A stretch of 64,000 nt of DNA, from positions 66,814,951 through 66,878,950 of the forward strand of contig NC_081553.1 in the NCBI RefSeq assembly GCF_963082655.1, given 5' to 3'. Under the pieces are notes generated by a model. The model had not been told where the DNA came from. It saw nothing but the letters and a program-made list of their open reading frames with translations, and ran no database searches. Origin of the DNA: Stomoxys calcitrans. Lineage: Eukaryota; Arthropoda; Insecta; Diptera; Muscidae. A program made the translations under genes and the position numbers. Positions 4,087 through 55,562 of the stretch are shown here, piece after piece. Every line of letters begins with the position of its first letter. Positions within the stretch are counted from its first letter, which is position 1.

Positions 4087-4260
4087 TTATCCAGTTCTGT
4101 TTCTGTTTCTCCTGATTCTTCTGACCACTGTGAATTGCATATTGGTGATGCGGAAAGTTCTCCTAGTTCCTGGTGCATTGGTTGATTGACCCATGACAGA
4201 GCTTATGCCACACAGGGCACAAATTAGAAAAAAGATCAATCCAAAGGTATAGAACTGCAT
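4087..4260 (-). CDS. P1: small secreted cationic peptide precursor, 57 aa
   Basis: The frame runs from ATG at 4260 to TAA at 4087. It is short enough to be missed by a 60-residue cutoff. Residues 1-24 form a signal peptide (MQFYTFGLIFFLICALCGIS, SVMG) with probable cleavage before Gln25, as in its six paralogues. The mature part, about 33 aa, has no cysteine and is rich in Arg. It lacks the Asn-rich linker of the other members and ends RRIRRNRNRTG, so a terminal Gly could serve for amidation. AATAAA lies 18 nt past the stop (4064-4069, minus) and a TATATAAG box lies 92 bp upstream of the ATG. Function is unknown; secretion is well supported, an antimicrobial or signalling role is only inference. 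Confidence 0.72.
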   Translation of the reverse strand: MQFYTFGLIFFLICALCGISSVMGQSTNAPGTRRTFRITNMQFTVVRRIRRNRNRTG

Positions 4261-4351
4261 TTTGGGTGAGGTGTTGCTTTATTCCGGCTACAATTTGAAT
4301 TGTTCTCGAGAACCAAGTCCTACTATGAATTTTTTGGACATTCTTCCATCC

Positions 4352-4360
4352 TTATATATT
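4352..4360 (-). promoter_or_regulatory. TATA box of P1
   Basis: Minus-strand AATATATAAG lies 92 bp upstream of the P1 ATG, at the same distance as in the paralogues. GTAGGACTTGGTTCTCGAG about 30 nt downstream matches the conserved start-site region of the family. Confidence 0.65.
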
Positions 4361-4507
4361 CTCTGAAAAATAACAAAATTTTATTTAATTAGCTGCAATT
4401 AAAGTTGCTAAAAGATGGCAACATAAACATGCATTGAAAGACAAACAAATGGATAAATAAAATATTTTGCAAAACAATGAATTAAAAATGAATTTTTGTG
4501 TACTTAC

Positions 4508-4574
4508 ATTTGAAATGCCTTTTTTGTTGCCTGTTATACACTATGAAGACGTCAGTCAGGCTTTCGATATTTGC
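4508..4574 (-). other. Conserved exon-like block upstream of P1
   Basis: On the minus strand the block is preceded by TTTTTGTTTTTAG and followed by GTAAGTAC, which look like a 3' and a 5' splice site around 67 nt. The P2 counterpart is 66 nt with the same signals. It has no evident coding sense. It is either an untranslated exon or a conserved upstream control element. Confidence 0.4.
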
Positions 4575-4576
4575 CT

Positions 4577-5650
4577 AAAAACAAAAAGTTGGAAAAACAA
4601 GTTAGTTAGGTAAACAGATTCGAGCTTTAGGTAATCAGCACCACTGACTTTCTGGTTGAAAAATTTTACCCCCATGAATACCATGAAAAATAGCGGATAT
4701 ACTTCTCTCATATTAGTGAGTGTTGTATGATTCAAATTAGCAGGCCTGTTCCGGTTTTCGAAGTCACAAAAAAGTAGATTTGCGCAAAATTTTCCAAATT
4801 GTTTAAGGTTTAAATGCAATTGAGGTGGCTCTTACTGGATGGAAATGTGATTAAAGTAAGGAAATTTTAAAGGGCCAAGGTTTGCAAGAAATAATTCCAA
4901 GAAAATCTTCTGTTTTGAGCCTTCTTAAACCGGATCAGGCATATTTAGCTCAATAATAAGCCGTTTTATACCCAAGATCGAACGGCGATGCGTTTGGGTG
5001 AATACCACACAAATGTCGCAACGCCAACACTGGATAATTGTGAGCACCACACAGATTAGAACGCAGCATAACTGAGAGCTATCGGTCGGGTCAACATGTT
5101 GCGTATAGTGCAGATCTAATTATAGTGCACATCTTCGTGGACATATGAAGTTACTGCAACTGCAGTGCCGGACAATCAGCTGCTTCGAGAGGTGAGTCTC
5201 AGTAAAGGGCCGGGAGGCACCAGATCTTACACAGAAAAAGAAGTTGTCTCAAAATTTAAAATTTTTTCTTGCACGAATGAGTTTATCAATGATTAAGTCT
5301 CAAAGAACCAAAACTGAACAATAAAGATGCTATCTTAAAATTTAGCTTACTATATACTTACAAACACAACCATTCGTTTCGTATATCGATAGCTCTTTGA
5401 TTATCATTTTATTTCACAGATGACTGTCCATTTTTTACTTCACAGATGACAAACTGGGTAGCAGGTTTTTGGCGTTGTGTTTCTTGCTGATGCTGGATGT
5501 TGTTTTTGTGTTAGAGATAATGGCGTTTGGTAGTTTACCTTTCTCACTGCGCTCAAAGAAAGGTACCCTGATATGAACCGTCTGAAATTCGTCTCAAAAA
5601 GGCATGCTTCCAGCATTGCACAGCTCACTAATTATTGAATAGGTGGAAGC
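4577..5650. other. No gene recognised; low-copy sequence
   Basis: I see no convincing coding region here. An 87-codon minus-strand frame at 4556-4819 overlaps the exon-like block and has no signal peptide or family match. The rest is A/T-rich with a GC-richer patch at about 4980-5220. I recognise no repeat family. Confidence 0.4.
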
Positions 5651-5736
5651 ATGTATGAGGTGATGAAAGGTATTTTACATATATACCCGAGGTGGTGGGT
5701 ATCCAAAGTTCGCCTTAACGCCTTTTTACTTGTTGT
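5650..5736 (+). mobile_element. R2 3' end fragment
   Basis: Only the last part of R2 is present: acatatatacccgaggtggt, gggtatccaaagttcg, a damaged hairpin, then cgcctttttacttgtt. It abuts the right arm of the inverted repeat exactly where the left arm abuts an R2 5' end. Confidence 0.7.
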
Positions 5737-7112
5737 ACATGGCGTAAGGTTTCGAAGCTCAAGTAATGTATTTATGCTGTTTGTACGTAATCGGGGGGAT
5801 ATGGAGGTTGATTATATCTTAATCAACCTCTTGATTTGACTTCTAGACTCCAGGAAGGGCATATTTTTCTTGTCATTTGGGTAAATTTAAGCATGTTGAA
5901 TTATAGTGAGACGTATACAGCATGATACATGTCTGAATTGGTTAATTGAGCACCTGCATATGATGTTTTGTCATGACTTCCAACATCCAAGCGAAATTAC
6001 CCATGTGATTTGAATTGGGTCATGGATTAGCTTCCATGTAAACGAATCTTAAATTTGTCTCTTTAAACACCTAAAGGGCAGATATATGAGGCAATTGGAC
6101 AAAGTTTTGTTAATAGCAATATGTCGAATATAATTCTAGAGGAAGGTTATATCAGGCGGAAGGATATTCTAATCAATACCTTTGAAAGTTTTAATAAAAT
6201 TAAAGAAAACAAGTAAAAGCGTGCTAAGTTCGGCCGGACCGAATCCTATATTCCCTCCACCATGGATTGCATTTCTCAAATTCTTTTCCCGGCATCTCTT
6301 CTTAGGCAAAACAAGTAAAAGCGTGCTATGTTCGGCCGGGCCGAATCTTATATATCCTCCACCTTAGATCGTATTTGTCGAGTTATTTTCCCGATATTTT
6401 TTTTTAGGCACACAAGGGATAAAATAAAAGAATTGATTTAATATTGCAGCTATATCAAGTTATGGTCAGATTGGGACCATAATCGAATTAAATGTTGGAG
6501 ACCATAGTAGAGAAGTCATTGTGTAAAATTGCAGCCAATTCGAGTAAGAATTGCGCCCTTTAGGGGCTCAAGAAGTAAAATAGAGAGATCGGTTTAAATG
6601 GGATCTGTATCAGGCTATAGACCGATTCGGACCATATTCGGACACCTATGTTAAAAGTCATGGGAAAAGCTGTTGTATAAATTTTCAGGGCAAATCGGAT
6701 AGTAATTACGCCCTCTGGAGGCTCAAGAAGTCAAGATCCCAGTGCGGTTGAAATGGCAGCTATATCAGGTTATGGATGGATTTTAACTATATTTGACACA
6801 GTTGCTAGAAGTCATAACAAAACACCTCACGCATAATTTCAGCCAAATCGGATAAATATTGCACCTTCAAGCAGCTCAAGAAGTCAAGATCCAATATTGG
6901 TTTATACGGCAGCTATATCAAGTTATGTATCGATTTGCGCCACACTTAGCACAGTCGTTGCAAGTCATAACAAAACACCTCTCGCAAAATTTCATAAGAA
7001 TTACGCCCTTCAGAGGCTCAAGAAATCAAGATCCCAGTTCGGTTTATATGGCAGCTATATCTGGTTATGTAACGATTTGCGCCATACTTAGCACAGTTGT
7101 TTAAAGTTATAG
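5737..7112. repeat. Right arm of the long inverted repeat
   Basis: This is the reverse complement counterpart of 1-1362, with many substitutions and small indels. It contains the non-R1 segment (about 5737-6190), two R1 terminal hairpins (about 6205-6260 and 6310-6365) and R1 monomers on the minus strand (about 6440-7112). Confidence 0.85.
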
Positions 7113-7960
7113 CAAAACACCTGTTTTGACAGTGAGAGTGCAAACAAATAATTTCAAACCTATCGCATTACCAATCTCCGAGATCTGGTGGTTTTGAAAA
7201 TTGGGGTAATGAGTAGTGCTTTTTAGGGCATAGATGGCACTCAGATATTTCGACTCAAATATGGATATTAGATTCGTGCTGCACTCCCAAATCCATTTAA
7301 TGTGAGGCCCATATTGCATTGGGGCGGCCACCGGTACCTTGCCCTGAAAATATATATCAAACTCGTTCCTTACTCCCAAATATCGATGATTTGAACTCCA
7401 TATTTCCTAATCGGAAATGTAGTTCAGTTAAGGAGGCGCTTAAGGACGTACCCTCAAACACTTGGCTCCAAAATAGTATATCAAATTCGTTTTATACTCT
7501 CGAAAACCTTTCATTTGAGTCCCATATTGTCATAATGGGTCAATCAACCTTTATGCCTTATTTTTCGAAAGAAAAGCGCCACCTAGACTTGAACACAAAT
7601 TTTAATGTCATATTCGTAATCTACTCCCAAATACCTTTCATTTGACATTTCCGTATAGACATGGTCGACTAATATGTCCGTTTGGGGGTACTTGGTAATG
7701 GAAAGACCTCCCATTACTTGGACCTTAGTTTTTATGCCATATTTGTAATTTACTGTCTTTTCATAATGAGGCCCATACTTTTCATATGAGGCCCATATTG
7801 ACATGAACGTCGAATATATCTATTTAGGGGAGTTTTTGTGTCGGCTAGACCTGCTGGGTACTTGGACTCAAATTTTAATACGATATTCGTTTTCTAGTCT
7901 CCAATACCTTTCATTTGATACCCATATTGTGCCTATGGGTCCACTTTTGGACCTTCCTTC
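7113..7960 (-). mobile_element. R4 tandem-repeat array, fragment
   Basis: Minus-strand R4 monomers, recognised by ctcccaaatacctttcattt and gcccatattg. Several degenerate units of about 120 bp are seen, without recognisable element ends. The open frames here are monomer translations. Confidence 0.6.
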
Positions 7961-8733
7961 CAGCACAGTTGTTTGAAGTCATGGCCAAACACCTTATGCA
8001 AAATTTCAGCCAATTTGGATGATACTGGTGCCCTCTAGCGACTCAAGAAGTCAAGATCCAAGATCAGTTTATATGGCAGCTATATCAGGTTATTAACCGA
8101 TTTGAACCATACCTAGCACATTTGTTGGAAGTCATACCAAAACGACCTATGTAAGATTTTAACCAAATTGGATAGAATTGCGCCCTATAGAAGCTCAAGA
8201 TGTTTAATTAGGAGATCGGTTTAAAAGGCGGCTATATTACGTTATGGACTGATGCAGACCGTACTTTGTACAGTTGTTGAAAGTTTTTCCTCAACGACAT
8301 GTGCCAAGTTTCAGCTAAATCGTATAAGAATTGCGCCCTCTTGAAAGTCAAGAAGTACAAACGGGCGACCGGTTTATATGGCAGCTGCATCAGGTTATGT
8401 ACCGATATGAACCATACTAAACACGGACGAAAATACATATATATGGGAGATGTATCTAAACCTGAAACAATTTCTTCCAATTTCACTAAACTTCGTCTCT
8501 AGGCCAAAAACGACGCCCGTTCCAAGTTTGAAGACGATCAGATGAAAATTGCAAACTATTGTAAACAGGTTAACATGGACAGACAGACGGACATAGCTAA
8601 ATCAAATCAGTAAATGATTCTGAGTCAATCAGAATTCTTATCAATGGGTCTTGCTCTTCTCCCTCTGGGTGTTACATACTAATTCACTAAGTTGTAATAT
8701 CTTGTACCACAGAAGTGGTGTAGGGTATAAAAT
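7961..8733 (-). mobile_element. R3 5' end with R1-like monomers
   Basis: On the minus strand this begins TTATACCCTACACCACTTC at 8733 and continues with the R3 5' domain (gacccattgataag, tgattctgag in reverse sense). Its interior monomers (7961-8480), however, carry the R1 phrase gctcaagaagtcaagatcc. It is therefore a mosaic of the two families. Confidence 0.6.
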
Positions 8734-9138
8734 AATGTAAGTGTAAGACAGTTCTTTTTAATAAAATTGAGTTCGCGCTTTGAAAAGAAAAATAATAACA
8801 ACTATCGTGGTCATCCGTCCAATGTAAGGTCGCCTAACAACGTCTCGCTCTTCCCTCATTAATGCATTTATGTATTGGATTTCGCTCTTCCACTTTTCAC
8901 AGAATTCTTGTATACGAAAATGTTGGGAAAAACCAAGGCCAAAACCAAAAAGTGAAGTGGCAAATATATAAAAGCATTGCTTTTGGTTTTCTTTTGATTA
9001 GTGGATTTTTTTTCGATCACTAGAACGTGTCGTGCTATCGATCATCGAAATTAAAAAAATCGATCACACTGGTCTTAAGGACCCCATACACTATTGGTCT
9101 CACATTTGTTCAAGCGTCGATTTATCGTACGACAAAAT
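8734..9138. other. Low-copy segment, no gene recognised
   Basis: This is a non-repeat interval between two R3 ends. A TATA-like TATATAAAAG sits at 8966-8975 on the plus strand. The frame downstream starts with GTG at 9032 and runs into R3, so I do not call a gene. Confidence 0.4.
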
Positions 9139-10136
9139 TTTTATACCCTACACCACCACATGGTATTATAACTATGTGCATTTGATAAGTATACCGATCG
9201 GATTAGAATCACTTCCTGATTCGATTTAGCTATATCCGTCTGTCTGTCCATGTATTCTTGTGATCAAGTTACAGGTCGCATTTATTGTCCGATTGTAATA
9301 AAATTTTGCACAAGTCTCTTTTCTGGCCCAAGGACAAATGCTACTGCATTGTCCTTGGGCCAGATTTACATATTGCTCCCATATATATCCTTCATCCGAT
9401 ATGGTCTTTTTTACAAAATTTGGCATGAGGTGCTTTATTCAATGTCTTTATATGTGTGCACAATTTCATAAAAATCGGTTCAGATTTAGATATAGCTCCC
9501 ATATATAGATATATAGCCACAATTTTTGTCCGATCTTTACCAAATATGGCATGGGGTGATTTATTTGACGTTTTCATATGTGCAAAATTTCATAAAAATC
9601 GGTTCAGATTTAGATATACCTCCCATATATATCTTTCATCTGATGTGGACTCTTAACGCTGTAGTAGGCACAATTTTGGTCCGATTTCTACAAAATTTAG
9701 CGTGAGTTGTTTTATTTAAAGTCCCAATGCGAGTGCGAAATTTCATATAAATCGGTCAAAATTAAGATATAGCTCCCATCTATATCCTTTATCCGATATT
9801 TTAATCCGATCTTAACAAAATCTAGTACGAGGTGTTGACGTCTTAATACGTGTGCAAAATTTCATGATATTCGGTTTGGATATAGATGTAGGTCCCCGTT
9901 ATATCTTTAATCCGAAATAGACTTTAGCCTGTAGAAACCACAATTTTCGTCCGATTTTGTAAGAGACGTTTTATTCGACGTTCCAATACGTGCACAAATT
10001 TCATTAAGATCGGTCCTGATTTTGATATAGCTTCAATGTATATATTCTATCCGATGTGGACTTTTAAGGCAGTAAAAGCCACAATTTTGGTGACATCTCT
10101 ACAATGTTCTATTTGACTTCCCAGTATTCTTAATAT
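9139..10136 (+). mobile_element. R3 element, 5' portion
   Basis: It starts TTATACCCTACACCACCACA, with the domain aagtataccgatcgg, gattcgatttagc, gtctgtctgtccatg. It then has monomers of about 155 bp with atatagctcccatatata and caaaatttcataaaaatcgg. It is interrupted by an R4 insertion and resumes at 12199. Confidence 0.7.
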
Positions 10137-12423: not shown

Positions 12424-12429
12424 CATGAT

Positions 12430-13070: not shown

Positions 13071-13080
13071 TAAGGATCCC

Positions 13081-13410: not shown

Positions 13411-14635
13411 ACTCGTTAACACCTCACAGCTCTAATCATACAAATTTTCCAGCAGTTATCTCTGCTCTTCTGAGCGATAACAAGTATCGACTTCTTTAAC
13501 TCGCCAGGTCCTGATGATGTATCACCGGTTGAATTACAAGCTGTGTCAGACAGACATGCTCCTTGGCTTAAGAAGATATACTCTGTTTGTATCAGCATGT
13601 CGTATATACCTGTGGGATGGAGGCACACTAAGGTAATTTTGATTCCAAAAACCAGGTAAACCTTACCTCACGAAGGCGATAGATTTTCGTTCTATTAGTC
13701 TGATATCCTCTATAGAGGTTGATAGAAACTTACCTTAAGACAAAGATCCATGAGGATCGCCTCTCGCGGCAGCAGCATGCACAAAGTAAGGACAAGTCCA
13801 CTGAGACTGCCCTTCGCAACCTCAGCGCCTATATTGAGGGTTCTCTCGCTGTCACGGAATATACAATGGTACCATAAGAAAGTTATGCATACTTTACTTA
13901 CTAAAAGATACATTACGAAAGTCCTGGGATCTGTAGATCAAAAATATGGATCAGAAGTAGGAAAACCTCGAGGTACCATCAACAATAAATCTTTGTCTCT
14001 GGAAGAAAGAGGTGTAAAAGTGGTCGAGTATACTGATGACGTGGCTATTGCGGTTAGGGGAAATTTTCCCAGCACTCTAAGAGATATACTTCAGAAAACT
14101 CCATGAGCGACAGCGAAATGGGCTGCCGAAAGTGGTCTTGGTAAAATCAGTGAAAGACAGACGATGTTCTTTTCAGCAGGACATACAAGTTGCCTGCCAC
14201 TGTAGGTCTCCTTGGGAGGAAAGCGCAAAATACCTAGGGAGTCTTGCTAGACAGGAATTTGAACTTCAAGTCTAACATTTTGGAAAATGCAACAAAGGCA
14301 ACTCTTGCCCTATACAACTGCAAGAGGGCTATTGGCCAAATTTGGGGGTTTTGAAACGCGTGTCATGCATTGGGTATAAACTGCAGTTATCAGACCTGCA
14401 ATACTATATGGTGTTGTGGTCTGGTGGACGGAACTTTAAAAGTCCACCTACTGTTCAATACTCAGCCGCATTCAAAGGATGGTTTGTTTGTGCATAACAG
14501 CCGCACTGAGTACTACGCCATCTGATCCACTGAATTTAATGCTACACCTAAAGCCTCTGGACATCGTATCTACACACATTGCTGCGACCACAGCCTTCCC
14601 TTTGGGGATGCGGCACCTAAGGACACTGTGTTATC
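13411..14635 (+). pseudogene. LINE-A reverse transcriptase, copy 1, first part
   Basis: Broken frames give TSPGPD-like NSPGPDDVSPVELQ, APWLKKIYSVCISMSYIPVG, then EYTDDVAIAVRGNFPSTLRD and NMLENATKATLALYNCKRAI in order, the core of a non-LTR reverse transcriptase. The catalytic box reads YTDD instead of the usual YADD. Many stops and frameshifts are present. At 14635 the copy is interrupted by LINE-C; its RNase H part resumes at 15188. Confidence 0.75.
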
Positions 14636-15187
14636 CTTGTGTTATCCAAAAGAAGCATTCAAGCTTCCTTAATCGGTGTAAGAATTACTTCACTCCGCCT
14701 GATCTTCTTAACATCTACACAACTTTCATAAGGCCGAAAATGGAATACAACTCACATGTATGGGCTGGAGCTGTAAAATCATCCCTGGAGCTACTGGACC
14801 GTGTACAGAAGAGAGCGATGGCGTTGATTGGGGACAGCTCTATTGCCTTCTTAGATCATCGTCGCAATGTAGCTTGTTTGGCGCTGTTCTATCGGTACTT
14901 TCATTGTGTGTGTTCGTCTGATATTCGTCTTCTTATTCGCGATGTAAGGATGTATGTCAGGGATACTAGACATTCCTGGAACTCACACCCCGTTTGTAAT
15001 TGATTGGCCAGCGGACCGCACAATGTATTATAGAGAGAATTCTTATTTCGCCCGAACCATCCGTATGTGGAGTCGACTTCCGGCTCATGTTTTTCCCACC
15101 CACTTTGACATCCAAAGATTTAAGACAAATGTCAATAAGCACTACATCCTCTCCTCCAAATCCTAAATCCAACGCAATGCACTGCAT
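14636..15187 (+). pseudogene. LINE-C reverse transcriptase C-terminal fragment inside LINE-A
   Basis: The encoded text (FLNRCKNYFTPPDLLNIYTT, FIRPKMEYNSHVWAGA, LLDRVQKRAMALIGD, LFYRYFHCVCSSDIR) is the typical C-terminal region of a different non-LTR clade, unlike LINE-A. An open frame of 174 codons (14479-15003) crosses the upstream junction, joining LINE-A text to LINE-C text. One frameshift near 15000 breaks the end (RTIRMWSRLPAHVFP follows in another frame). Confidence 0.75.
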
Positions 15188-16165: not shown

Positions 16166-16191
16166 TGAAAATTCCTTTAAAAAAGTTTGTT

Positions 16192-16480: not shown

Positions 16481-16488
16481 TTTTTATA
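16481..16488 (-). promoter_or_regulatory. TATA box of P2
   Basis: Minus-strand TATAAAAA lies 89 bp upstream of the ATG, followed by AAGTTAGACTTGG, the probable start-site region shared by the family. TTTTGCAGCTAAATAAATAA lies behind it. Confidence 0.7.
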
Positions 16489-16665
16489 CTCTTTGAAAAA
16501 TAACAACGTTTTATTTATTTAGCTGCAAAATAAGCTGGAAATCGATGATAACATAGGCAAGATGTTGAAAATTTCATTTAATTTTGTTTGCAATTATTTA
16601 ATGGCTAAATCAACATTGTGAAAACAATAAAGCAACAATCTGTATATACATATGTATGTTCTTAC

Positions 16666-16865: not shown

Positions 16866-18578
16866 ATTTGCAAGGAAAGGCAAAAGTCGGGCGGTGCCGA
16901 CTATATAATACCCTACACCACCACCACTTAGTGTATGTAGTACTTTTTATATGTAGAACTTATCTCGAAATCTAGTCAGACTTTAATTTGGATACCTATT
17001 GAAATAGCAATTTACAACCTTGTAAGATTTTCCTACCACAGAACAAAAGATTTGGATTTCGACATCTTTATAAGGCCATATCGGATTCATCTTTAAAATG
17101 ACATATGGGAGATGTGACCAAAGTTGTGGATTTTACTGCCTTAAAAGTCCATATCGGATGAAATATACACACTGGAGCTATATCTAAATTAGGACCGATT
17201 TTAATGTAATTTTGCGCACGTATTGGAACGTCAATTTAAACGTCTCATGTACAATCGGACGAAAATTGTGGCTTCTACTCCTTTAAAAGTCCACATCAGA
17301 TGAAAGATATATATGGGAGCTATATCTAAATCTAAACCGATTTTTATGAAATTTTGCACACATGGACGAAAATTGTAGCTTCTACTCCTTTAAAAGGCCA
17401 TATCGGATGAAAGATATGTAAGGGAGCTATAACTTAATCTGAACCGATTTTTATGAAATTTTGCACACATACGAAGACGTCAAATAAAACACCCCATGCT
17501 AAATTTTTTAAAGATCGGACGAAAATTGTGGCTTCTACAGCCTAAAACGTCCATATCGGATGAAAGATATATATGGGAGCTATATCTAAATCTAAACCGA
17601 TTTTTATGAAATTTTGCACACATATTAGGACGTCAAATAAAACACCTAGCGCAAAATATTTTAATGATCGGACTAAAACTGTGGCTTCTACAGCCTTAAA
17701 CGGCCATATCGGATGAAAGATATGTAAGGGAGCTATATCTTAATCTGAACCGATTTTCATGAAATTTTGTACTCGTATGAAGACGTCAAATAAAGCACCT
17801 CATGCAAAATTTTGTAAAGATCTGACCAAAATTGTGGCTTCTACAGCTTTAAACGACCATATCGGATGAAAGATATATATGGGAGTTATATCTAAATCTG
17901 AACCGATTTTCATGAAATTTTGAAGACATATTAGGACGTCAAGTAAAACACCTCGCGCAAGATATTTTAAAGGTCGGACCAAAATTGTGGCTTCTACAGC
18001 CTTAAACGTCCATATCGGATGAAAGATATATATGGGAGCTATATCTAAATCTGAACCGATTTTAATGAAATTTTGCACACATATTAGGACGTCAAATATA
18101 ATATATATAATAATATATATATAATATACTACCTCGCACAAAATATTTTAAGGATCGGGCTAAAATTGTGGCTTCAACAGCCTTAATAGTTCAATTCGGA
18201 TGAAAGATATATATTGGAGCTATATCTAAATCTGAACCGATTTTAATGAAATTTTTCACATATGTTAAGATCAGTAACAAAACAGTACGTGCCAAATTTT
18301 GAGCTATATCTAAATCTGAACCGATTTTTTTTCAAAATCTATAGCGTTTTTCCTTGGGGCAAAATAGTGACATGTGCAAAATTTCGTGGCAATCGGACAA
18401 GAAGTACGACCTGTCCTTTGATTAGGATTAGACGGACATGGTTAAATTGAATCAGGAAGTGATTCTAAGCCGATCGATATACTTATCAATGGGTCTAGCT
18501 CTTCTCCTTCTTAGCGTTGCAAACAAATGCACAAATCTATAATATCCTGAACCACAGTGGTGGTGGCTATGATTCGAA
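16866..18578 (-). mobile_element. R3 element, apparently full length
   Basis: On the minus strand the 5' end lies near 18578 (ccaccactgtggttcagg, then the aagtatatcgatcgg domain). About seven monomers of roughly 155 bp follow, with gctatatctaaatctgaacc in the plus sense. The inverted end GGTGGTGTAGGGTATTATAT is followed by a hairpin AGTCGG-CACCGC-CCGACT near 16885-16905. A TA-rich insertion sits at about 18097-18128. The open frame 17800-18141 is monomer translation. Confidence 0.75.
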
Positions 18579-22034: not shown

Positions 22035-23578
22035 TCAAACAAGTAAAAAGGCGTTAAGTTTGACCGGGCCGAACTTTGGACACCCACCACCTCGGGTATA
22101 AATGTAAACCACCTGTCGTCATAGTCCGGTGAAAAATGCATAACTTATGCCCACATAGCAGCTATATCGAAATATGGTCCGATTTGAACCAAATTCGGCA
22201 TGGACATTGAAGTACAAGTCATTGTTCAATTTAGTAGAACAAAATTGGTCTTTTTGGTAGCTTTATCCAAATATAGACCGATCTGAACCATATTCGACAC
22301 AGATGTCGAAAAAGTCATTGACACAGTGACTTATCACTGTGTCAAATTTCAGCGAAATCGAATTATAAATGCTCCTTTTAGGGGGCCAAGACTTTAAATC
22401 GAGATATCGGTCTATACGGCAGCTACATCCAAATCTGGACCGATCTGAGCTAATTTGAAGAGGGATGTCAAAGGACTTAACACAACTCGCTGTCCCAAAT
22501 TTCGGCGAGATCGAACAAAAAATTTGTCTTTTATGAGCCCAAGACCTAAATCGAGAGATCGTTCTACATGGCAGCTATATTTAAATATGGACCGATCTGC
22601 GCTAAATTGAAGAAGGATGTCGGATGCCCTAACACAACTCACTGTCTTAAATTTCGTCCACATCGGACAATAAATGCGCCCTTTATGGGCCCCACACATG
22701 TTATCGAGAGATCGGTGTATATGCCAGCTATATCCAAATCTGAACCGATCTGAGCCAAATTGCAGAAAGATGTCGAAGGGCCAAACACAACACACTGTCC
22801 TAATATTCGGCGAAATTTGAAAAAAATAAATGCGTCTTTTATGGGTTTTAGACCTAAAATCGAGAGGTCGGTCTATTTGGCAGCTATATCCAAATCTGGA
22901 CCGATCTGAGCCAAATTGAAGAAGAATGTCGAAGGGCTTAACACAACTCACTGTCCCAAATTTTTGGCAAAATCGGACGATAAATGCGAATTTTATAGGC
23001 CCAAAACCTTACATCGAGAGATCGGTCTATATGGCAGCTATATCCAAATCTGGACCGATCTGGGCCAAATTGAATAAAGATGTAAAAGGGCCCCACACAA
23101 CACACTCCTCCAAATCTCAGCAAAATCAGACAATAAATGTGACTTTTATGGGCCTAAGACATTAAATCGGTGGATCGGTCTATATGGGCGCTATATCAAG
23201 ATATAGTCAGATATAGGCCATCTTCGAACTTAACCTGCTTATGGGCAAAAAAAAGTCTGTGCAAAGTTTCAGTTCAATATCTCTATTTTTAAAGACTGTA
23301 GTGTGATTTCAACAGACAGACGGACGGACGGTCTGACGAACGGACGGACAGACGGACGGACGGACGGACAGACGGACGGACAGACGGACGGACAGACGGA
23401 CGGACAGACGGACGGACAGACGGACGGACGGGCAGACGGACGGACAGACGGGCGGACAGACGGACGGACAGACAGACGGACAGACGGACGGACAGACGGA
23501 CGGACAGACAGATGGACAGACGGACGGACAGACGGACGGACAGACGGATTGACAGACAGACGGACGGACAGACGGACG

Positions 23579-24443: not shown

Positions 24444-24451
24444 TTTTTATA
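24444..24451 (-). promoter_or_regulatory. TATA box of P3
   Basis: Minus-strand TATAAAAA, 90 bp upstream of the ATG. The start-site region (TTTGGTTTAGGTTCCC) is more diverged than in other members. An upstream AG (TGTTCTAG, ending at 24602) aligns with the exon-like block of P1 and P2, but the block is shortened. Confidence 0.6.
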
Positions 24452-24619
24452 CTTTTGGGAAAATAAACAAAATTTGTTTGTTTAGCTGCAAAATAAGCTT
24501 CTAATCATTAATAACTTAGACATGCATGGAAATGTGTGGATGAATAAAATGGTTTTTGTTTATGCACCTAGTTAATGTACGTCAATCAATGTGATGTTTG
24601 CCTAGAACAGAACAAAGGA

Positions 24620-24892: not shown

Positions 24893-25754
24893 CCAATTTT
24901 GCTGGAATTTAGGACAGTGAGTTCTGTTAGGCCCTTCGACATTCTTCTTCAATTTGGCCTACATCAATTCAGATTTGGATATAGCTGCCATATAGACCGA
25001 TCTCTCGATTTAAGGTTTTGGGGCCATATAGAGCGCATTTATTGTCCGATTGCCCCAAAATTTGGGACAGTAAGTTAACTTAGGCCTCTCAATATTTTTC
25101 CACAATATGGCATAGATCGGTCCAGATTTGGATATAGCTGTCATATAGACCGATCTCTCGACTTAAGGTCTTGGGCCCATAAAAGGCGCATTTATTATCC
25201 GATTTTGCTGGATTTTGGGACAGTGAGTTGTGCTTGGCCACTCGACATCCTTCTTTAATTTGGCCTACATCGGTTCAGATTTAGATATAGCTGCCATATA
25301 GACCGATCTCTCGATATAAGGTTTTGGGGCCATAAAAGGCGCATTTATTGTCCGATTTCGCCGAAATTTCGGACAGTGAGTTGCGTTAAGAACTTCGACA
25401 ACTTTCTGCAATTTGGTGTAGATCGGTCCAGATTTGGATATAGCTGCCATACAGACCGATTTCTCGAAATTTGGAACAGTGAGTTCTGTTAGACCCTTCG
25501 ACAGGCCTCTTCAGTTTTGTCCAGATCGGTCCAGATGGCAGTTATATCTAAATATAGCTGCCATGTAGACCGATCTCTCCATATAAGGATTTGGACCCAT
25601 GAAAAGCGCATTTATTGTAAGATTTTGCTAAAATTTAGGACAGTTAGTTGAATTAGGCCCTTCGACTTCTTTCTTCAACTTGGCCCAAATCGTTCCAGAT
25701 TTAAATATAGCTGCCATGTAGACCGATCTCTCGATATAAGGTTTTGCGCTCATT
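24893..25754 (+). mobile_element. R2 monomer array, truncated by mariner
   Basis: About five R2 monomers (ttttgctggaatttaggaca, ctctcgatttaaggttttgg). The last monomer breaks off at gttttgcgctcat, where mariner sequence begins. Minus-strand R2 text resumes beyond the mariner, so the two flanks are not one simple array. Confidence 0.65.
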
Positions 25755-30199: not shown

Positions 30200-30207
30200 T
30201 TTTTATA
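30200..30207 (-). promoter_or_regulatory. TATA box of P4
   Basis: Minus-strand TATAAAAA, 93 bp upstream of the ATG, with GTAGTTAGATTTGCTTCTC as start-site region and TTTTGCAGCTAAATAAATAA behind. Confidence 0.65.
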
Positions 30208-30420
30208 CTCTTAGGAAAAAAACCAAATTTTATTTATTTAGCTGCAAAATTGCATGGCATTAGAAAGAATACAACCATCATTAGAAAAAATACAATTTTA
30301 AAAAACAAAAGAGTCAACATAAGTTTTTATGTATTGACATTTTTATTGCCTCACGACTTAATGCCAGTCTTTCCATATTTGTATAAAAACAAAACAAGAT
30401 AAACATTTAATGAAGTTGTT

Positions 30421-35237: not shown

Positions 35238-37012
35238 TTTTTATACCCACCACCGAAGGATGTGGGTATATTCATTTTGTCATTCCGTTTGTAACACATC
35301 GAAATATCCATTTCCGACCCTATAAAGTATTTCCATAAAGTATAAGTATAAGTATATAAGTATAAGTATATAAGTATAAGTATAAGTATTTCTATAAGGT
35401 ATAAGTATATTCTTGATCAGCGTAAAAATCTAAGACGATCTAGCCATGTCCGTCCGTCTGACTGTCTTTGTTGAAATCACGCTACAGTCTTTAAAAATAA
35501 AGATATTGAGCTAAAACTTAGCACAGATTCCTTATTTGTCCAAAAGCAGGTTAAGTTCGAAGATGGGCTATATCGGACTATATGTTGATATAGCCCCCAT
35601 ATAGACCGATCCGCCGATTTAGGGTCTAAGGCCCATAAAAGCCACATTTATCATCCGATTTTGCTGAAATTTGGAACAGTGAGTTGTGTTAGGCCTTCGA
35701 CTTCCTTCTACAATATGGTCCTGATCGGTTCAGATTTGGATATAGCTGCCGTATAGACCGTTCCGCCGATTTAGGGTTTTATGCTCGTAAAAGCCACATT
35801 TATTGTCCGATTTGACTGAATTTTGGGACAGTGAGTTGTGTTAGGTCAGTCGACATCTTTCTCAGTTTGGCCCATATCGGTCCAGATTTGGATATAGCTG
35901 CCATATAGACCGATCTCTCGTTTTAAGGTCTTGCGCCCATAAAAGACGCATTTATAGTCCGATTTTGCCAAAAATTGGGACAGGGAGTTAAGTTAAGCCC
36001 TTCGGCATACTTCTGCAATGTGGCACAAATCCGTTCAGATTTGGATATAGCTGCCATTAAGACTTTGGGCCCATTAAATGCGCATTTATTGTCCGATGTT
36101 GCCGAAATTTGGGACAGTGAGTTAAGTTAAGCTCCTCGACATATTTCTGCAATTTGGCCTAGGTTGATCAAGATTTGCATATAGCTGCCATACAGACCGA
36201 TCTCTCGTTTTAAGGTCTTGCGCCTATAAAAGACGCATTTATTGTCCGATTTTGCCAAAATTTGGAACAGTAAGTTAAGTTAAGCCCTTCGACATACTTC
36301 TGCAATGTGGCACAAATCCGTTCAGATTTGGATATAGCTGCCATATAGACCGATCTCTCGATGTAAGGTTTTGGACCCATAAAATGCGCATTTATTGTCC
36401 GATGTCAACGAAATTTTGGACAGTTAGTTGTGTTAGGGCCTTCGACAATCTTCTCCAATATGGCTCAGATCGGTCCAGATTTGGATATAGCTGCCATATA
36501 TAGAACGATCTCGCGATTTTAGGTTTTGGGCCCATAAAAAGCGCATTTATTGTCCGATTTCCCCGAAATTTGGAACAGTGAGATATGTTAGGCTCTTCGA
36601 AATTTCTCTGCAACTTGGCCCAAATCGGTCCAGATTTGGATATAGCTACCATACAGACCGATATTTCGATTTAAAGTCTTGGTCCCATAAAAGGCTCATT
36701 TATAATCCGATTTCGCCGAAATTTTACACAGTGACTTATGTTAGGTTTTTCGACATCCGTGTCGTATATGGTTCAGATCGGTTTATTTTTAGATAGCTAC
36801 TGAAAATACCAATATTTTGTGATACACAATTGAACAATGACTTATACTCATTAGTATTTGGTTCAAATCGGAACATATATCGGTATAGCTGCTATGGGGC
36901 ATAAGGTATGCATTTTTCACCGGATTTTGACGAAAGGTGTTTTACATATATACCCAAGGTGGTGGGTACCTAAAGTTGGGCCCAGCCGAACTTAATTCCT
37001 TTTAAATTGTTG
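35238..37012 (+). mobile_element. R2 element, full length
   Basis: Starts ttatacccaccaccgaagga; the 5' domain carries a small insertion of (taagta)n-type repeats (35330-35410). Eight or so monomers follow, and the end reads ggtggtgggtacctaaagtt, gggcccagccgaactta, ccttttaaattgttg. The 3' hairpin arms are mutated. Confidence 0.8.
35330..35410 (+). repeat. TAAGTATA microsatellite
   Basis: Irregular run of ataagtataag units that duplicates the cctataaagtatat segment of the R2 5' domain. Confidence 0.8.
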
Positions 37013-41591: not shown

Positions 41592-41599
41592 TTTTTATA
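41592..41599 (-). promoter_or_regulatory. TATA box of P5
   Basis: Minus-strand TATAAAAA, 94 bp upstream of the ATG; GTAGTTCGACTTGGTTCTCG is the start-site region and TTTTGCAGCTAAGTAAATAC lies behind. Confidence 0.7.
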
Positions 41600-41729
41600 C
41601 TCTTTGAAAAATAACAAAATCGTATTTACTTAGCTGCAAAATAAGTTTGGAGATATTGGATCGGATAAACAAAAACATTGACAACAATAAAGAAACAATC
41701 AATTTCTTTGTACTTACATTCAGAAAAAA

Positions 41730-43520: not shown

Positions 43521-43523
43521 TTT

Positions 43524-46197: not shown

Positions 46198-46205
46198 TTT
46201 TTATA
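46198..46205 (-). promoter_or_regulatory. TATA box of P6
   Basis: Same promoter as P5, with TATAAAAA 94 bp upstream of the ATG. Confidence 0.7.
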
Positions 46206-46337
46206 CTCTTTGAAAAATAACAAAATCGTATTTACTTAGCTGCAAAATAAGTTTCGAGATATTGGATCGGATAAACAAAAACATTGACAGCAATAAAGAA
46301 ACAATCAATTTCTTTGTACTTACATTCAGAAAAAAAC

Positions 46338-47649: not shown

Positions 47650-48942
47650 GTTATACCCTCCACCATAGGATGGGGGGGGGGGGTATTCTAATTTCGTCAT
47701 TCTGTTTGTAACTACTCGAAATATTCGTCTGAGACCCCATAAAGTATATATATTATTGATCGTCGCGACATTTTATGTCGATCTAGCCATGTCCGTCCGT
47801 CCATCTGTCTGTCGAAAGCACGCTAACTTTCGAAGGAGTAACGCAAGCCGCTTGAAATTTTGCACAAATACTTCTTATTAGTGTAGGTCGGTTGGTATTG
47901 TAAATGGGCCATATCGGTCCATGTTTTGATATAGCTGCCATATCTTGTCGATATTGGGTCTTGACTTCTTGAGCCTCTAGAGTGCGCAATTCTTATCCGA
48001 TTGGAATAAAATTTAGCACCACGTGTTTTGTTATGATATCCAACAACTGTGTCAAGTATGGTTCAAATCGGTCCATAACCTGATATAGCTGTCAAATAAA
48101 CCGATCTTGGGTCTTGACTTCTTGAGCCTCTATAGTGCGCAATTTTTATCCGATTGGAATGAAATTTCGCACGTAGTATTTTGTTATGATATCCAACAAC
48201 TGTGCCAAGTATGGTTCAAATCGGTTCATAACCTGATATAGCTGCCATATAAACCGATCATCGGTCTTGACTTCTTGAGCCTCTAAAGTGCGTAATTCCT
48301 ATCCGATTGGGACGAAATTTTGCACAACGTGTTTTGTTATGATATCCAACTGTGCCAAGTATGGTTTAAATCGGATGATAACCTAATAAAGCTGCCATAT
48401 AAACCGATCTTGGGTCTTGACTTCTTGAGCTTCTAGAGGGCGCAATTCCTATCCGATTTGGCTGAAATTTTCCAAGACGTATTTTATTCTTAATTCAACA
48501 ACTGTATTAAATAAGGTTCAAATCGGTTCATAACCTGATATAGCTGCCGTATAAACCGATCTGGGATCTTCAATTCTTGAGCCTCTAGAGGTCCAGTTAT
48601 TATTCGATTTGCTTGAAATTTTGTACGACGGATTCTCTCATGACCATCAACATACGTGTTTATTATGGTCTGAATAGGTCTATAGCCCGATACAGCTCCC
48701 ATATAAATCGATCTCTCTATTTTACTTCTTGAGCCCCCAAAGAGCGCAATTCTTATTCGAAATGGCTGACATTTGACACAGGTCTCCAACATAAAATTTA
48801 ATAAAATAAAATTTAACCGGACCATATCTTGATTTCGCTCTAATAGCAGAGCAAATCTTTCTTATATCCTTTTTTGCCTAAGATCCATGGTGGAGGGTAT
48901 ATAAGATTCGGCCCGGCCGAACTTAACGCGCTTTTACTTGTT
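47650..48942 (+). mobile_element. R1 element, full length
   Basis: ttataccctccaccatagga, a G12 run, the R1 5' domain, about five monomers, then atggtggagggtatataaga, a hairpin ttcggcccggccgaa (7-bp arms, 1-nt centre) and cgcgcttttacttgttttt. Confidence 0.8.
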
Positions 48943-48954
48943 TTTATTTGCCTA

Positions 48955-50090: not shown

Positions 50091-50180
50091 CATTGTCTTT
50101 ATTTTTATTTGGCTATGATCGGTCCAGATTTGGATATAGCTGCCATATAGTACAATCTCCCGATTTAAGGTCTTGGGTCC
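50091..50180 (+). mobile_element. R2 monomer fragment
   Basis: ggtccagatttggatatagc, cccgatttaaggtcttgggt, ending ccata at the LINE-A 3' end. Confidence 0.5.
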
Positions 50181-52475
50181 ATAGGTTAGGACAGGTTTAT
50201 GTGGCAGTCTGCCATCAGACTCACTTAGACGTTTTCGTCCATTGTGATACCATAGGAACAGAAGAAGAAAGATGCCTTCTAGTATCTACGGTTGAACCAT
50301 ACAGATCGCTTTAAAAGGCCCAATAACTTGCAAATGTTCACATCCGCTAAATCAGTCAGGTTCTCAAAGAAATTAGAACATAAAGTGCAACTCCTGACTG
50401 CTAGTGCATACATACACACTATTTTCTCTTCCTCTTCGATGTCTTCAGATCTTCTGCAAAAATCGTTGCTGGCAACCTTCAGTCTGTTACCACGTTTTTC
50501 TATTAGACAGTGACCTGTCATGACGGATACAATGACTGAGACATCTGTTCTAGCCAATGACAGCAAAGAGTTAGACCTCTTCAAGTCTAGATGAGGCCAC
50601 ATAGTTTTGGAATGCTCACAGCCCCCTCTTTGTGACCATCTATCATTCGTTCTCCTTCGGGCCAAGTCTTGAAAACTTAGCTTACATGTCACTAGAGGTA
50701 TACCCACAGATTCCAGTATTCCTGAAATGTGTAGGGTAGTTCCTTGTGTCTTAAGCTCATTCGCTTTACATTTTCCTGGGATATCTCAGTGGAGCGGCAC
50801 CCAGAATAGATGAATTTTGAACTGTTCAGTTATTTCGTTGAGAGATCTGCAACAGTCGAGGGCGATTTTTGTGTTCAGAAATATTTTCTCCAGGGATCTG
50901 CCTGGCTGTCTGAGAAGACATTTACGCCAATCGTCGTAATGACATTATATCTAAGCCATTCCACCACTTCCTTAATTGCAAGGATCTCCGCTTGATACAC
51001 ACTGCAGTGGTCGGGTAACCTTTTCAATATGACCAGTTCTAGAGCTTTAGAGTACACCCCAAAGCCCACATGGTAGTTTAGTTTGGAACCATCCGTGTAG
51101 AAGTCTATGTAACTTCTGTTACCAGGGTTATCGTAGTTCCAATCGGTTCTATCAGGAAAAGTGTTACAAATGCAAAATGCAAATTTGCCCATGAACATTC
51201 CACTAAGGAACGGGCAAATTTCTCACAAGTCCGATTCAGGTTTAAGCTCAATGATAAGGGGCCTCCTTTTTGTTGTCAGCATTAGGAGGGGAAAATCACC
51301 GCTGAAATTTTTTTCTAATGGTCTCGCCAGGATTCGAACCCAGGCGTTCAGCGTCATAGGCAGACATGCGAACCTCTGCGCTACGGTTTTACAGTAATTT
51401 TTATCAAAAAGCGGCTCAGGTAGGGTGTAATCCACACTGCCTGGAACATCGGATATTGTATCAATGATAACACAGTGTCCGTAGCAGCCAGATGACCAAT
51501 GAAAAAGCTTCCTTAACCTCACGGCAGTGGTCGCAGCAATTTGTCTAGGCACAATGTCCAGAGGCATAACATGCAGCATTAAACTCAATGCATCAGATGG
51601 TGTCGTCCTCAGTGCGGCTGTGATGCACAAACACGCCATCCGATTGACTATTGAACAGTAGGTGGACTTTTGAAGCGCCCTACACCATACCCCTACACCA
51701 TATAGCATTATAGGTCTGACAACTGAAGTAAATACCCAATGCATGACATGCGGTCTAAGCCCCCAACTTTTGCCAATGGCTCTCTTGCAGGTGTATAGGG
51801 CAATAGTTGCCTTACTTGCCTTTTCCAAAATGTTGGATTTGAAGTCCAATTTCCTGTCCAGCAAAACACCCAGGTATTTTGCGCTTTCTGTAAATGGAAC
51901 ATTCTCTTTTTCTAAGGAGACAGGTTTCACTGTAGGCAACTTGTATCTACTGCTGAAAAGAATTCCTTCCTTGCACGGATTTTTACCTAGACCACTTTCG
52001 GTAGCCCACTTTGCTGTTGCACGTAGAGCTTTCTGAAGTGTATCTCTTAGAGTGCTGGAAAACTTTCCCCTAACCGCAATTGCCACGTCATCAGCATACG
52101 CGACCACATTTACGCCTTTTTCTTCCAGAGAAAATAATATATTGTTAATGGCTATATTCCAAAGCAGAAGAGACAGTACACCTTTTTGAGTGGTTTCTCT
52201 ACTGATCCACAGATCCCAAGCCTGTCGTAATGCATCATTTAGTAAGTAAGTTATTAATAAACTTTCTTAAGGTAGAATTAATGCCTAGAAACTCCACTTC
52301 CTTCATGATTGACGTCGGTTTTACATGGTTGAACGCACCTTGAATGTCAAGAAATGCAACCATTGTGTATTCCTGGACAGCGAGAGAACCCTCTATGTAG
52401 CCGACTAGGTCGTGAAGGGCTGTTTCAGTGTATTTGCCTTTACTATAAGCATGCTGCTACCGCGACTGTCGATCT
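50181..52475 (-). pseudogene. LINE-A, copy 3: reverse transcriptase and RNase H, minus strand
   Basis: The longest open frame of the window (51223-52107, 294 codons) starts at an internal Met and carries intact YADD (residues 4-7), then KYLGVLLDRKLDFKSNILEK, VRPIMLYGVGVWCRAL and LMLHVMPLDIVPRQIAATTA. Its last about 55 residues come from an inserted SINE, not LINE-A. RNase H follows on the minus strand (51160-50880: IDFYTDGSKLNYHVGFGVYS, YQAEILAIKEVVEWLRYNV), then the C-terminal region (NRLKVASNDFC) and a 3' end with CTGTCCTAACCTA. The 5' end is truncated near 52475 and frameshifts break RNase H, so it is dead, but it is the best preserved LINE-A copy. Confidence 0.8.
51175..51388 (-). mobile_element. 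SINE inserted in LINE-A copy 3, internally deleted
   Basis: tRNA-like head without its first bases (cgtagcgcagaggttcgcat, B-box-like gggttcgaatcctgg), then a jump over about 100 bp (gctgacaacaaaaagg) to the 3' domain (ccccttatcattgagcttaa, gttccttagtggaatgttca). Confidence 0.8.
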
Positions 52476-52479
52476 CTGG

Positions 52480-52960
52480 CGAGATTTAGATATAGCTTGC
52501 ATAAAAATAATTCGCCCGATTTTCTCTTACAAGGTCCTAGTTACTACAATTTTCAACGGATTTGCATAAAATTCGTTATGGAATGTTGTATTACTTAGCC
52601 TCCGCTAAGTTTAATCAAAATCGGTTCAGATTTGGATATAGCTCCAATTATAGTTTTCAACCTACAGTAACTACAGCCCAATTATTCAACTTCGCCTACT
52701 ATCTTTATACTCATGTATATCGAAATCTGAATATCCCGTTCTCACACGGCATATTTTTTGCAAGTTTTGTTTTTGATTTTCTCCCACTGTGCGACGTTTC
52801 CAGGGTTCAAGAAGACAATCTTACGATTTGTTTTCTTGAACACTTTAGGGGCTCAATTCTTATTCGATTGAGTTGAAGCTTTACACGATGATTTCAAAAT
52901 GATTAGATTCTGCCTAAAAAGAGATACTATGCAAGGAATATTATAAATGTGATTCATGGT
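52480..52960 (+). mobile_element. R3 monomers and R1-like end, decayed
   Basis: tcagatttggatatagctcc type monomers, a stretch containing ttctcccactgtgcgacg, then an R1-like end (attcatggtggagggaaatg, aagattcggccaagccgaac). Confidence 0.5.
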
Positions 52961-53132
52961 GGAGGGAAATGAAGATTCGGCCAAGCCGAACTTAGTAACT
53001 TTCAACTTGCCATAGCCTACACCAATATTATGGCAAATGAAAATTTCTACACTAGTATTCCATCTCAATGATAAGGGGCATCCTTTTTGCATACATTCCA
53101 TATTCATTTTCATATTTCTTCTTCTTATATAT

Positions 53133-54058
53133 GACAAGTAAAAAGGCGTTAAGTTCGGCCGGGCCGAACTTTGGATAACCACCACCTCGGGATTATATGT
53201 AAACCACCTTTCATCAAAATCCGGTGAAAGTTGCATACCTTATGTCCCATAGCAGTTATATCGAAATATGTTCCGATAGGGACCCAAAACCATAAATCGA
53301 GAGATCGGTCTATATGGCAGCTATATTCAAATCTAGACAGATATGGGCCTAATTTAAGAAGGACGTCGAAGAGCCTAACACAACTCACTGTCTCAAATTT
53401 CAGTGACATCGGACAATAAATGCGACTTTTATGGCCCCAAAACCTAAAACCGAGAGACCGGGCTATATGGCAGCTATATCCAAATCTGAACCGATCTGGG
53501 CAAAATTGAAGAAAAATGTCAAATGGCCTAACACAACCCACTGTCCCAAATTTAAGCAAAATCGAATAATAAATGTGGCTTTTATGGGCCTAAGACCCTA
53601 AATCGGAGGATCGGTCTATATGGCAACTATATCCAAATCTGGACCGATCTGGGCCAATTTCATGAAGGATTTCGAAGGGCCAAACACAACTCACTGTCCC
53701 AAATTTCAGCTAAATCGGATAATAAATGTGGCTTTTATGGGCCTAAGCCCCTAAATCGGCCGATCGGTCTATATGGGGGCTATATCAAGATATAGCCCGA
53801 TATAGCCCATCTTCGAACTTAACCTGCTTATGGAAAAAAAAAAGAATCTGTGCAAAATTTCAGCTCAATATCTCTATTTTTAAAGACTGTAGCGTGATTT
53901 CAACAGACAGACGGACAGATGGACGGACATGTCTAGATCGTCTTAGATTTTTACGCTGATTAAGAATATATATACTTTCTGGGGTCTTAGACGCATATTT
54001 CGAGGGGTTACAAACAGAATGACGAAATTGGTATACTCCCATCCTATGGTGGAGGGTA
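53133..54058 (-). mobile_element. R2 element with an R1-type 5' end
   Basis: The 3' end at 53133 is typical R2: acaagtaaaaaggcgttaag and a hairpin with perfect 10-bp arms around one G. Four monomers are R2. The last part, however, is R1-type (ccccagaaagtatatatatt, tttcgtcattctgtttgtaa, ttataccctccaccatagga on the minus strand). Confidence 0.7.
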
Positions 54059-55000
54059 TAAAAATCAAATTGTGTTTGTTTGTAGGTTTGTTTGTTTGTG
54101 TGTTCCTTATAGACTCGAAAACGGCTGAACCGATTTTCTTGAAATTTTCACAGATGGTGCATAATGATCCCCTGGTGAAAAGAGGATACTAAATTTTTTG
54201 ATATTTGAAGGGGGGACGGACCCTCCCCCTTACCCTAATTTTCAGAAACGCCAGATCTCGGAAATGGGTGGCGCAATTTAAGCCAAATTTTGCGTGCTCC
54301 TTATAGTAACCTAAAAACAAAAATTTGGTATCCAAATTTTGGATGGGGTACCTAGGGGGGCCACCCCACCCCCAAAACTTACCAAAAATATATATAGACC
54401 AATCATGATGACTTAAAGGATGGGACTTAAATGTATTTAAGGTATTTAATATTAGAAAACGAATCTTATAACCAATTTTCGGACTAAGTGTTGGGAGACC
54501 ACCCCAACCCCCAAAACACCCCTAAATCGGACATATTTACCGACCATGGCAATATGGGACTCAAATGAAAGGTATTTACGAGTAGAATACTAATTTGATA
54601 TCAAAATGTGCGACCAAGTGTTGGGGGGGCCACCCCTCCCTAAAAACACCCCCAAACAGGACATATTTACTGACCATAGCAATATGAGGTATTTTAGGGT
54701 AGAATACAAGTATTATACCCAAATGTGGAACCAAGTGTTGTGGGGGCAGCCTCTCCCCAAAAACACCGCCAAAGAGCACAAATTTACGAGCATAACAATA
54801 TGGGGTTCAAATGAAAGGTCTTTGGAAGTACCCCACGAATCCGATATCAATATTCGCGATAAAGTTTCTATGGGCCCAACCCACTCCACAACACCACCCA
54901 AATAGGAAGTATTTGCTGACCATTGCAATATCGGGCTCCAATAAGAGATACTTTAGAGTATAATACGCAGCTGATATATATTTTCAAAGAAATCAGGGCT
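54059..55000 (+). mobile_element. R4 element, 3'-truncated
   Basis: 5' end aaaaatcaaattgtgtttgt, gtgttccttatagactcgaa, aacggctgaaccgattttct, then about six monomers. The GGGTCAGCTAGT end is missing. It abuts the neighbouring R2/R1 element without spacer. Confidence 0.65.
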
Positions 55001-55290
55001 AAGTGTAAGATGAATGCCTTAAGTAATCAAAAAAATGAACACATTTCGAACCGAACACTGATTTTGGTAATAAAATTCAATGATTTGCAAGCGTTGCTCG
55101 TTAGTAAGTCTATTCATGATGAAATGTCAAAGCATACTGAGCATCTTTCTCTTTGACACCATGTCTGAAATCCCACGTGATCTGTCAAATACTAATGCAT
55201 GAAAATCCTAACCTCAAAAAAATCACCCTTTACTACTATTGTCGCAGAAGAAATTCATAGATAACATTTTTTTTTTTTTTGTTTTATAGC
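55001..55290. other. No gene recognised
   Basis: Low-copy sequence between R4 and P7, containing a T-run at 55267-55280. Confidence 0.3.
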
Positions 55291-55322
55291 CTTTATTCCA
55301 TTTTTGGTATTAAAAAAGTTTA

Positions 55323-55562
55323 TTAACCTTTTCTACTTTTACCATTATTGCCACTATTATTATTATTATTATTATTATTTGGTCGTCTTATGATTCTTCT
55401 GTTGACAGTTGAGAATTGCAAACCGCTGATATTATTATTGTTGACATTGTTGAATGTTTGAGCACCTGCTGCAGCAGGAGCTTCTGATGATTGACCCATG
55501 ACGGAGCTGATGCCACACATGGCAAAAATGATCGAAAGGACAAATCCAATTGAGAACTGCAT
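55323..55562 (-). CDS. P7: small secreted cationic peptide precursor, 79 aa
   Basis: The start is the ATG at 55562 (MQF, as in all paralogues); an in-frame TTG at 55571 is not needed. Signal peptide MQFSIGFVLSIIFAMCGISS, VMG; mature QSSEAPAAAGAQ, Asn linker TFNNVNNNNISGLQF, basic core STVNRRIIRRP, then a second Asn run (eight in a row) from a tat/aat trinucleotide microsatellite, and SGNNGKSRKG. Terminal Gly after Lys. The TATA box (TATAAATAGAA) is 93 bp upstream; AATAAA signals overlap the stop and lie at 55292-55297. The upstream donor-like GTAAGCAC is present; beyond it an R3 3' end begins. Confidence 0.82.
   Translation of the reverse strand: MQFSIGFVLSIIFAMCGISSVMGQSSEAPAAAGAQTFNNVNNNNISGLQFSTVNRRIIRRPNNNNNNNNSGNNGKSRKG

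Follow-up and report, generated by a model that had tools for sequence, protein, structure and literature searches.

Sixteen or more clustered genes encoding small, secreted-looking cationic peptides with a shared core in Stomoxys calcitrans

The described systems closest to the genes reported here are the cecropin/sarcotoxin-1 peptides (PF00272), the salivary glue genes of Drosophila, the Sex peptide family (PF08138) and the salivary Hyp 16 of Stomoxys calcitrans. In Stomoxys, antimicrobial peptide families are described, in the portions of the genome paper available, as expanded and tandemly arranged (PMC7944917). Here we describe a cluster of small peptide genes on C2 (NC_081553.1) of this fly, found in a window of 64,000 nucleotides (66,814,951-66,878,950; all coordinates below are window coordinates), in which an initial annotation had recognised seven minus-strand frames, P1-P7, with precursors of 57-86 amino acids. 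Extended by 50 kb on its left and 100 kb on its right, the window forms a joined stretch of 214 kb, holding 200 N. Over ~130 kb of it lie at least 16 intact peptide frames, on both strands, and one relic. The picture of a seven-member, same-strand family thus holds inside the window but not beyond it, since the flanking DNA to the right contains nine further intact frames, namely two more on the minus strand (P8 and P9) and seven of a second subfamily (B1-B7) on both strands (Table 1).

The precursors begin with MQF in subfamily A (P1-P9) and with MNC, MKC or MKL in subfamily B, and the signal peptides of the two are barely alike. Their mature parts, however, share the core I[ST]NMQ[YF]TVVRRIxR, which is complete in ten short-core genes (P1, P8, P9 and B1-B7). 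In P2-P7, I[ST]x[ML]x[YF] and RRxxR are retained behind an Asn-rich linker and the rest of the core varies freely; RRxxR is present in all 16 proteins. The family signature is therefore the mature core, and the Asn-rich linker is the mark of the P2-P7 subgroup alone. The initial annotation had given this linker as NNVNNNNIS in all window genes but P1, which is exact for P5-P7 and altered in P2, P3 and P4 (Table 1). It had also proposed a near-invariant signal peptide (MQF, AMCGISSVMG, Gln). Gln does come directly after the presumed signal-peptide site in all 16 proteins, the site being defined by the string GQ or AAQ rather than by a predictor, but the preceding sequence varies to ALCGISSVMG in P1, AMCGISTVMG in P2, AMCGVSLVMG in P3 and AMCGISSVVG in P4. 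The mature parts are free of cysteine (0/16), as had been noted for the window genes, and carry a net charge of +6 to +11. The last residue is Gly in ten proteins and three more end in Gly-Lys; a C-terminal Gly serves as an amidation signal, which suggests C-terminal amidation of the Gly-ending members. The longest Asn run in a tail (P7) is encoded by repeated AAT codons, (AAT)8. We considered whether the Asn-rich linker is N-glycosylated and rejected the idea, as sequon counts were not above those of shuffled mature parts.

The core is strongly constrained between the subfamilies in the ten short-core genes, despite near-saturated synonymous divergence. Across 14 core codons, P1, P8 and P9 compared with B1, B2, B5, B6 and B7 gave 0.70 synonymous differences per synonymous site (pS) and 0.08 nonsynonymous differences per nonsynonymous site (pN) over 15 pairs, which share branches and are not independent. 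Two of these pairs alone gave a pS of 0.62 and a pN of 0.11 (Fisher p 1e-5), and P1-P8 plus B1-B2 a core ratio of 0.30 (p 0.026). The rate of nonsynonymous substitution (dN) was 0.57 in the signal peptide and 0.32 in the mature part for P8-B6, and 0.62 and 0.38, respectively, for P8-B2. Thus, the earlier statement that the signal peptide is the best conserved part is right within the MQF subfamily, whereas between subfamilies it is the mature part that is better kept. Likewise, a picture of plain fast evolution is not supported, the core being free to vary only where Asn-rich genes are involved. Within subfamilies, seven pooled independent pairs gave a pN/pS of 0.64 for the whole frame (p 0.004) and 0.42 for the signal peptide (p 0.004).

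In a tree built from 170 upstream bases plus the coding sequence, the split between A and B was supported at 100/100 and the Asn-rich genes grouped together at 77/88, while the three short-core A genes did not form one group. P2-P7 are a divergent branch of the family, and this grouping indicates, with moderate support, that the Asn-rich linker is probably derived. We tentatively propose, at appreciably less than an even chance, that this is an unrecorded family of Stomoxys or its close kin, in which a new cationic core occurs in two subfamilies with hardly similar signal peptides, and in which one branch may have lost the constraint on the core, gained the Asn-rich linker and so acquired a second function.

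With an alignment of every member except B4, whose protein is the same as that of B3, as the query (15 proteins), no homologue at E up to 10 was retrieved from a collection of 5.8 billion proteins (2316 candidates), and B6 alone returned no candidate, in a search that needs shared 5-residue words and for a class of short genes that often go unannotated. A cecropin control in the same collection matched 179 proteins, with Stomoxys, Haematobia and Musca among the matches listed; the collection therefore has muscid proteins but no member of the peptide family. P1-P5 and P7 had no Pfam match at cut-off and none to PF00272 at E <= 1, and B1 and B2 had no match to PF00272 at E <= 0.1. The description of a secreted-looking, cationic, cysteine-free fly family is borne out, with no named relative found in Pfam or the protein collection. 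Solved structures searched by sequence with a P1-P7 profile were rejected as relatives (one unrelated match, E 0.12). A literature search for the peptide strings and the family topic found no paper, supplements being outside its reach, and nothing describing these peptides was seen in the accessible parts of the Stomoxys genome paper (PMC7944917).

Nor do the frames behave as a dispersed repeat, an origin that we rejected. Searches of the window by tblastn with P6, P4 and P7 recovered the seven frames, all of them intact, at E <= 6e-9, the best non-family match being at 0.097, and all 16 proteins searched against the 214 kb yielded no further convincing member. A search of the entire 1.07-Gb assembly with P6 returned at least nine matches at E <= 0.001, all in the cluster (the seven window frames and two to the right). 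Two duplications extend well beyond the genes: B3 and B4 lie in a 4.67-kb tandem duplicate of 99.9% identity, which could be very recent or an assembly artefact, and P5 and P6 in a 2.5-kb duplicate of 97% identity. The other listed paralogue pairs align over just 234-873 bases around the gene.

The promoters are also alike. Under a two-part pattern that was loosened after these promoters had been seen, each of the 16 genes is preceded by a TATA-like box and, 33-43 bases further upstream, a forkhead-like box; the pattern matches five additional sites in the 214 kb, including one directly before the relic. TATAWAAR is present in 15 of 16, its closest copy lying 96-118 bases ahead of the ATG, and P7 has a near-match. 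The strict form of the upstream box, CTAAAYAAAY, was found in 13 promoters against 0.3 sites expected in all, the expected counts of upstream sites here and below coming from shuffles that ignore the relatedness of the promoters. The box fits the consensus of forkhead-type sites. In the 500 bases upstream of each gene, strict kB sites (GGGRNNYYCC) were absent from all 16 (0.3 sites expected), loose kB-like sites (GGGRNWTYC) were confined to B6 and B7 (0.8 expected) and GATA sites were not enriched (19 against 24.4 expected). AGGTCA nuclear-receptor half-sites numbered 11 (2.1 expected) and were found in 7/7 B promoters and in no P promoter, a hint that the two subfamilies may be under different hormonal control. 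Patterns for FTZ-F1, STAT, EcRE, AP-1 and C/EBP were tried and were not clearly enriched. At the other end of the genes, AATAAA lies within 200 bases after the stop codon in 14 of 16 (6.6 expected), P2 and B7 being those that lack it. As far as promoter motifs can indicate, the evidence leans towards constitutive expression in a secretory epithelium and away from acute immune induction; infection-induced expression receives no support from them.

The account that we favour, although we place it somewhat short of an even chance, is that of a birth-and-death cluster for constitutively secreted, perhaps amidated, cationic peptides that serve as a standing antimicrobial defence. Its single-exon genes, 16 or more, would each encode a short secretory precursor, its signal peptide cut before the conserved Gln, which may then cyclise. 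The product would be a linear peptide with the positive charge given above, amidated in the Gly-ending members. A forkhead-type factor bound beside the TATA box would drive constitutive or tissue-specific transcription in secretory epithelium, rather than an acute NF-kB response, and the basic core would act on microbial membranes. The expanded, tandem antimicrobial peptide families of Stomoxys count in favour of such a defence role.

Several results weigh against it. AlphaFold2 applied to P1 with an alignment of P1-P7 placed a helix at residues 38-53 at low confidence (mean predicted local distance difference test score, pLDDT, 62; predicted template modelling score, pTM, 0.29). Helical moments of the core, calculated for all members except P1 and P9, ranged from 0.16 to 0.85 (P4 0.85, P2 0.61, subfamily B 0.34-0.49, P5 and P6 0.16), compared with 0.61 for the cecropin helix; they are unremarkable in several members, the B values falling at the 67-94th percentile of shuffles. 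Beta-type amphipathicity of the core was low in the same 14 members and was rejected. Among the seven within-subfamily pairs, the mature part was not significantly constrained (pN/pS 0.77, p 0.15) and the core ratio was 1.03, which we ascribe to the Asn-rich genes involved in three of the seven pairs. The lack of any family member in the protein collection might occur with little expression. Finally, the absence of kB sites is weak evidence, since so few strict sites were expected by chance and there was no positive control.

Other roles can be proposed for the same genes. Stomoxys calcitrans is a blood feeder, and the peptides might be anti-haemostatic or immune-modulating products of the salivary gland, driven there by Fork head. 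The forkhead-like box, a putative site present in 16/16 promoters in its loosened form and in most in its strict form, would suit this, as would Drosophila Sgs-3, whose control elements are said, to go by the title of Lehmann et al. 1997 as cited in PMC10835880, to be potential fork head and ecdysone-receptor sites. We nonetheless consider a salivary role unlikely: 97% of gland-enriched sialome reads are attributed, in the parts of the genome paper available, to antigen 5, thrombostasin, Hyp 16 and an endonuclease (PMC7944917). Family members in the protein collection number zero, too. Seminal or accessory-gland peptides would be another possibility, as reproductive-tract peptides are often short, duplicated and quick to lose homologues. 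Of 763 male-tract-biased Stomoxys genes, 216 had no informative hits, according to the same partly available source (PMC7944917). B2 also weakly matches Pfam Sex_peptide (PF08138), but below cut-off (E 0.038; 14.6 versus 25 bits) and only at residues 1-19, which are signal peptide, and the strong constraint on the shared core between subfamilies makes a reproductive role, in our judgement, rather unlikely.

That the invariant RRxxR might be a processing site deserves mention because R-x-x-R is a minimal furin-type site; with Gln after the presumed signal-peptide site in every member and Gly at the end of ten, the proteins could be read as precursors of signalling peptides with blocked ends. 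Yet sixteen diverging copies with variable tails would be unusual for a hormone, and a cut at RRxxR would leave the terminal Gly in the discarded tail, so that we regard this as improbable. We give similarly little credence to antimicrobial peptides induced through NF-kB in fat body or haemocytes, which clustered, cationic, cysteine-free peptides and the loose kB-like sites of B6 and B7 would fit, but which the strict kB, loose kB and GATA counts above speak against. Least probable of all, and very improbable in our view, is that the frames are mostly non-functional or untranslated and kept by recent duplication. Their absence from the protein collection, the unconstrained core in within-subfamily pairs and the one decayed copy are what such an origin would leave; against it stand the 16 intact frames, the constraint on signal peptide and whole frame within subfamilies and the low core pN relative to pS between them. 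The standing-defence reading thus remains the one we prefer.

If expressed, the cluster amounts to a gene family, 16 members or more, of a major livestock pest, and the searched protein collection lacks it. Its products are candidate peptides for defence or secretion whose clear conserved core is open to synthesis and assay, and constrained and relaxed branches lie side by side in one cluster.

The genomic setting is summarised in Table 1. To the left, the neighbour is a cyclic-nucleotide phosphodiesterase gene, and between it and the cluster lies a ~8-kb array of a 62-base unit. Many separate tandem arrays of a ~153-base unit are interspersed with the peptide genes, with the recurring stretch ATATAGCTGCCATATAGACCGATC. 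Long open frames with the look of retroelement pieces, judged by eye, occur both in the window and to the right of the cluster. No tRNA or RNA family was found in the window at gathering score.

Table 1. Positions of the peptide genes, their promoters and neighbouring features, in window coordinates (negative values lie left of the window).
Feature	Position	Strand	Description
P1	4087..4260	minus	57 aa precursor; short core ITNMQFTVVRRIRR; no Asn-rich linker; last residue Gly
P2	16192..16392	minus	66 aa precursor; Asn-rich linker NNINNNNIS; last residue Gly
P3	24094..24354	minus	86 aa precursor; divergent linker NNTNINSIS; last residue Ser
P4	29856..30107	minus	83 aa precursor; linker TNVNNNNIS; last residue Gly
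P5	41298..41498	minus	66 aa precursor; linker NNVNNNNIS; last residue Gly
P6	45904..46104	minus	66 aa precursor; linker NNVNNNNIS; 1 residue different from P5; last residue Gly
P7	55323..55562	minus	79 aa precursor; linker NNVNNNNIS; (AAT)8 Asn run in tail; last residue Gly
P8	78208-78378	minus	Subfamily A (MQF), short core
P9	83894-84064	minus	Subfamily A (MQF), short core
B1	93927-94121	plus	Subfamily B
B2	99421-99618	plus	Subfamily B
B3	108268-108465	plus	Subfamily B
B4	112933-113130	plus	Subfamily B; protein identical to B3
B5	117681-117884	minus	Subfamily B
B6	129067-129261	minus	Subfamily B
B7	133369-133563	plus	Subfamily B
P1 promoter	4353..4391	minus	Forkhead-like box (variant TAATTAAATA) to TATA-like box
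P2 promoter	16483..16521	minus	Forkhead-like box to TATA box
P3 promoter	24446..24484	minus	Forkhead-like box TAAACAAACA (as in subfamily B) to TATA box
P4 promoter	30202..30240	minus	Forkhead-like box to TATA box
P5 promoter	41594..41632	minus	Forkhead-like box (variant TAAGTAAATA) to TATA box
P6 promoter	46200..46238	minus	Forkhead-like box (variant TAAGTAAATA) to TATA box
P7 promoter	55656..55698	minus	Forkhead-like box to TATA-like box
Relic	64759-64670	minus	Just right of window; broken frame without a TATA region, forkhead-like box retained
B3/B4 tandem duplicate	106290-115618		
Phosphodiesterase exons	-39.0 to -28.3 kb	plus	GAF domains; two pieces Pfam-checked
62-base-unit array	-12660 to -4711		Copies ~98-99% alike
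~153-base-unit arrays	1802-3685, 17364-18098, 22344-23197, 24906-25467, 35587-36782, 47927-48760, 53289-53801, 62498-63264		
Long open frame	14440-15000	plus	Non-LTR (long terminal repeat) retrotransposon-fragment look, by eye
Long open frame	51226-52266	minus	Non-LTR retrotransposon-fragment look, by eye
1742-codon open frame	152143-157368	plus	Right of cluster; retroelement polyprotein look, by eye

To conclude, the cluster can be set beside the systems named at the outset. Hyp 16, as the accessible parts of the genome paper present it, also belongs to the same-species peptides of unknown function (PMC7944917), although no protein of the collection matched our family and Hyp 16 was compared by description only. 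The Sex peptide family resembles it in its short secreted precursors and in the weak B2 match, which is below cut-off, lies in the signal peptide alone and leaves the mature part without a match. Cecropins have an amphipathic N-terminal helix, whereas here the core moments are widely spread among the 14 members and the predicted helix is of low confidence; PF00272 was not matched by P1-P5, P7, B1 or B2, and canonical kB sites were not seen. Like the peptides of our cluster, however, the cecropin/sarcotoxin-1 peptides are clustered, short, cysteine-free, cationic and secreted, in the same fly, and many members end in Gly. In the Drosophila salivary glue (Sgs/new glue) genes the likeness is not based on sequence comparison, and AGGTCA half-sites are limited in our cluster to the B genes; what the two have in common, going by the part of the source available, is a clustered set of genes for secreted products with potential fork head sites (PMC10835880).

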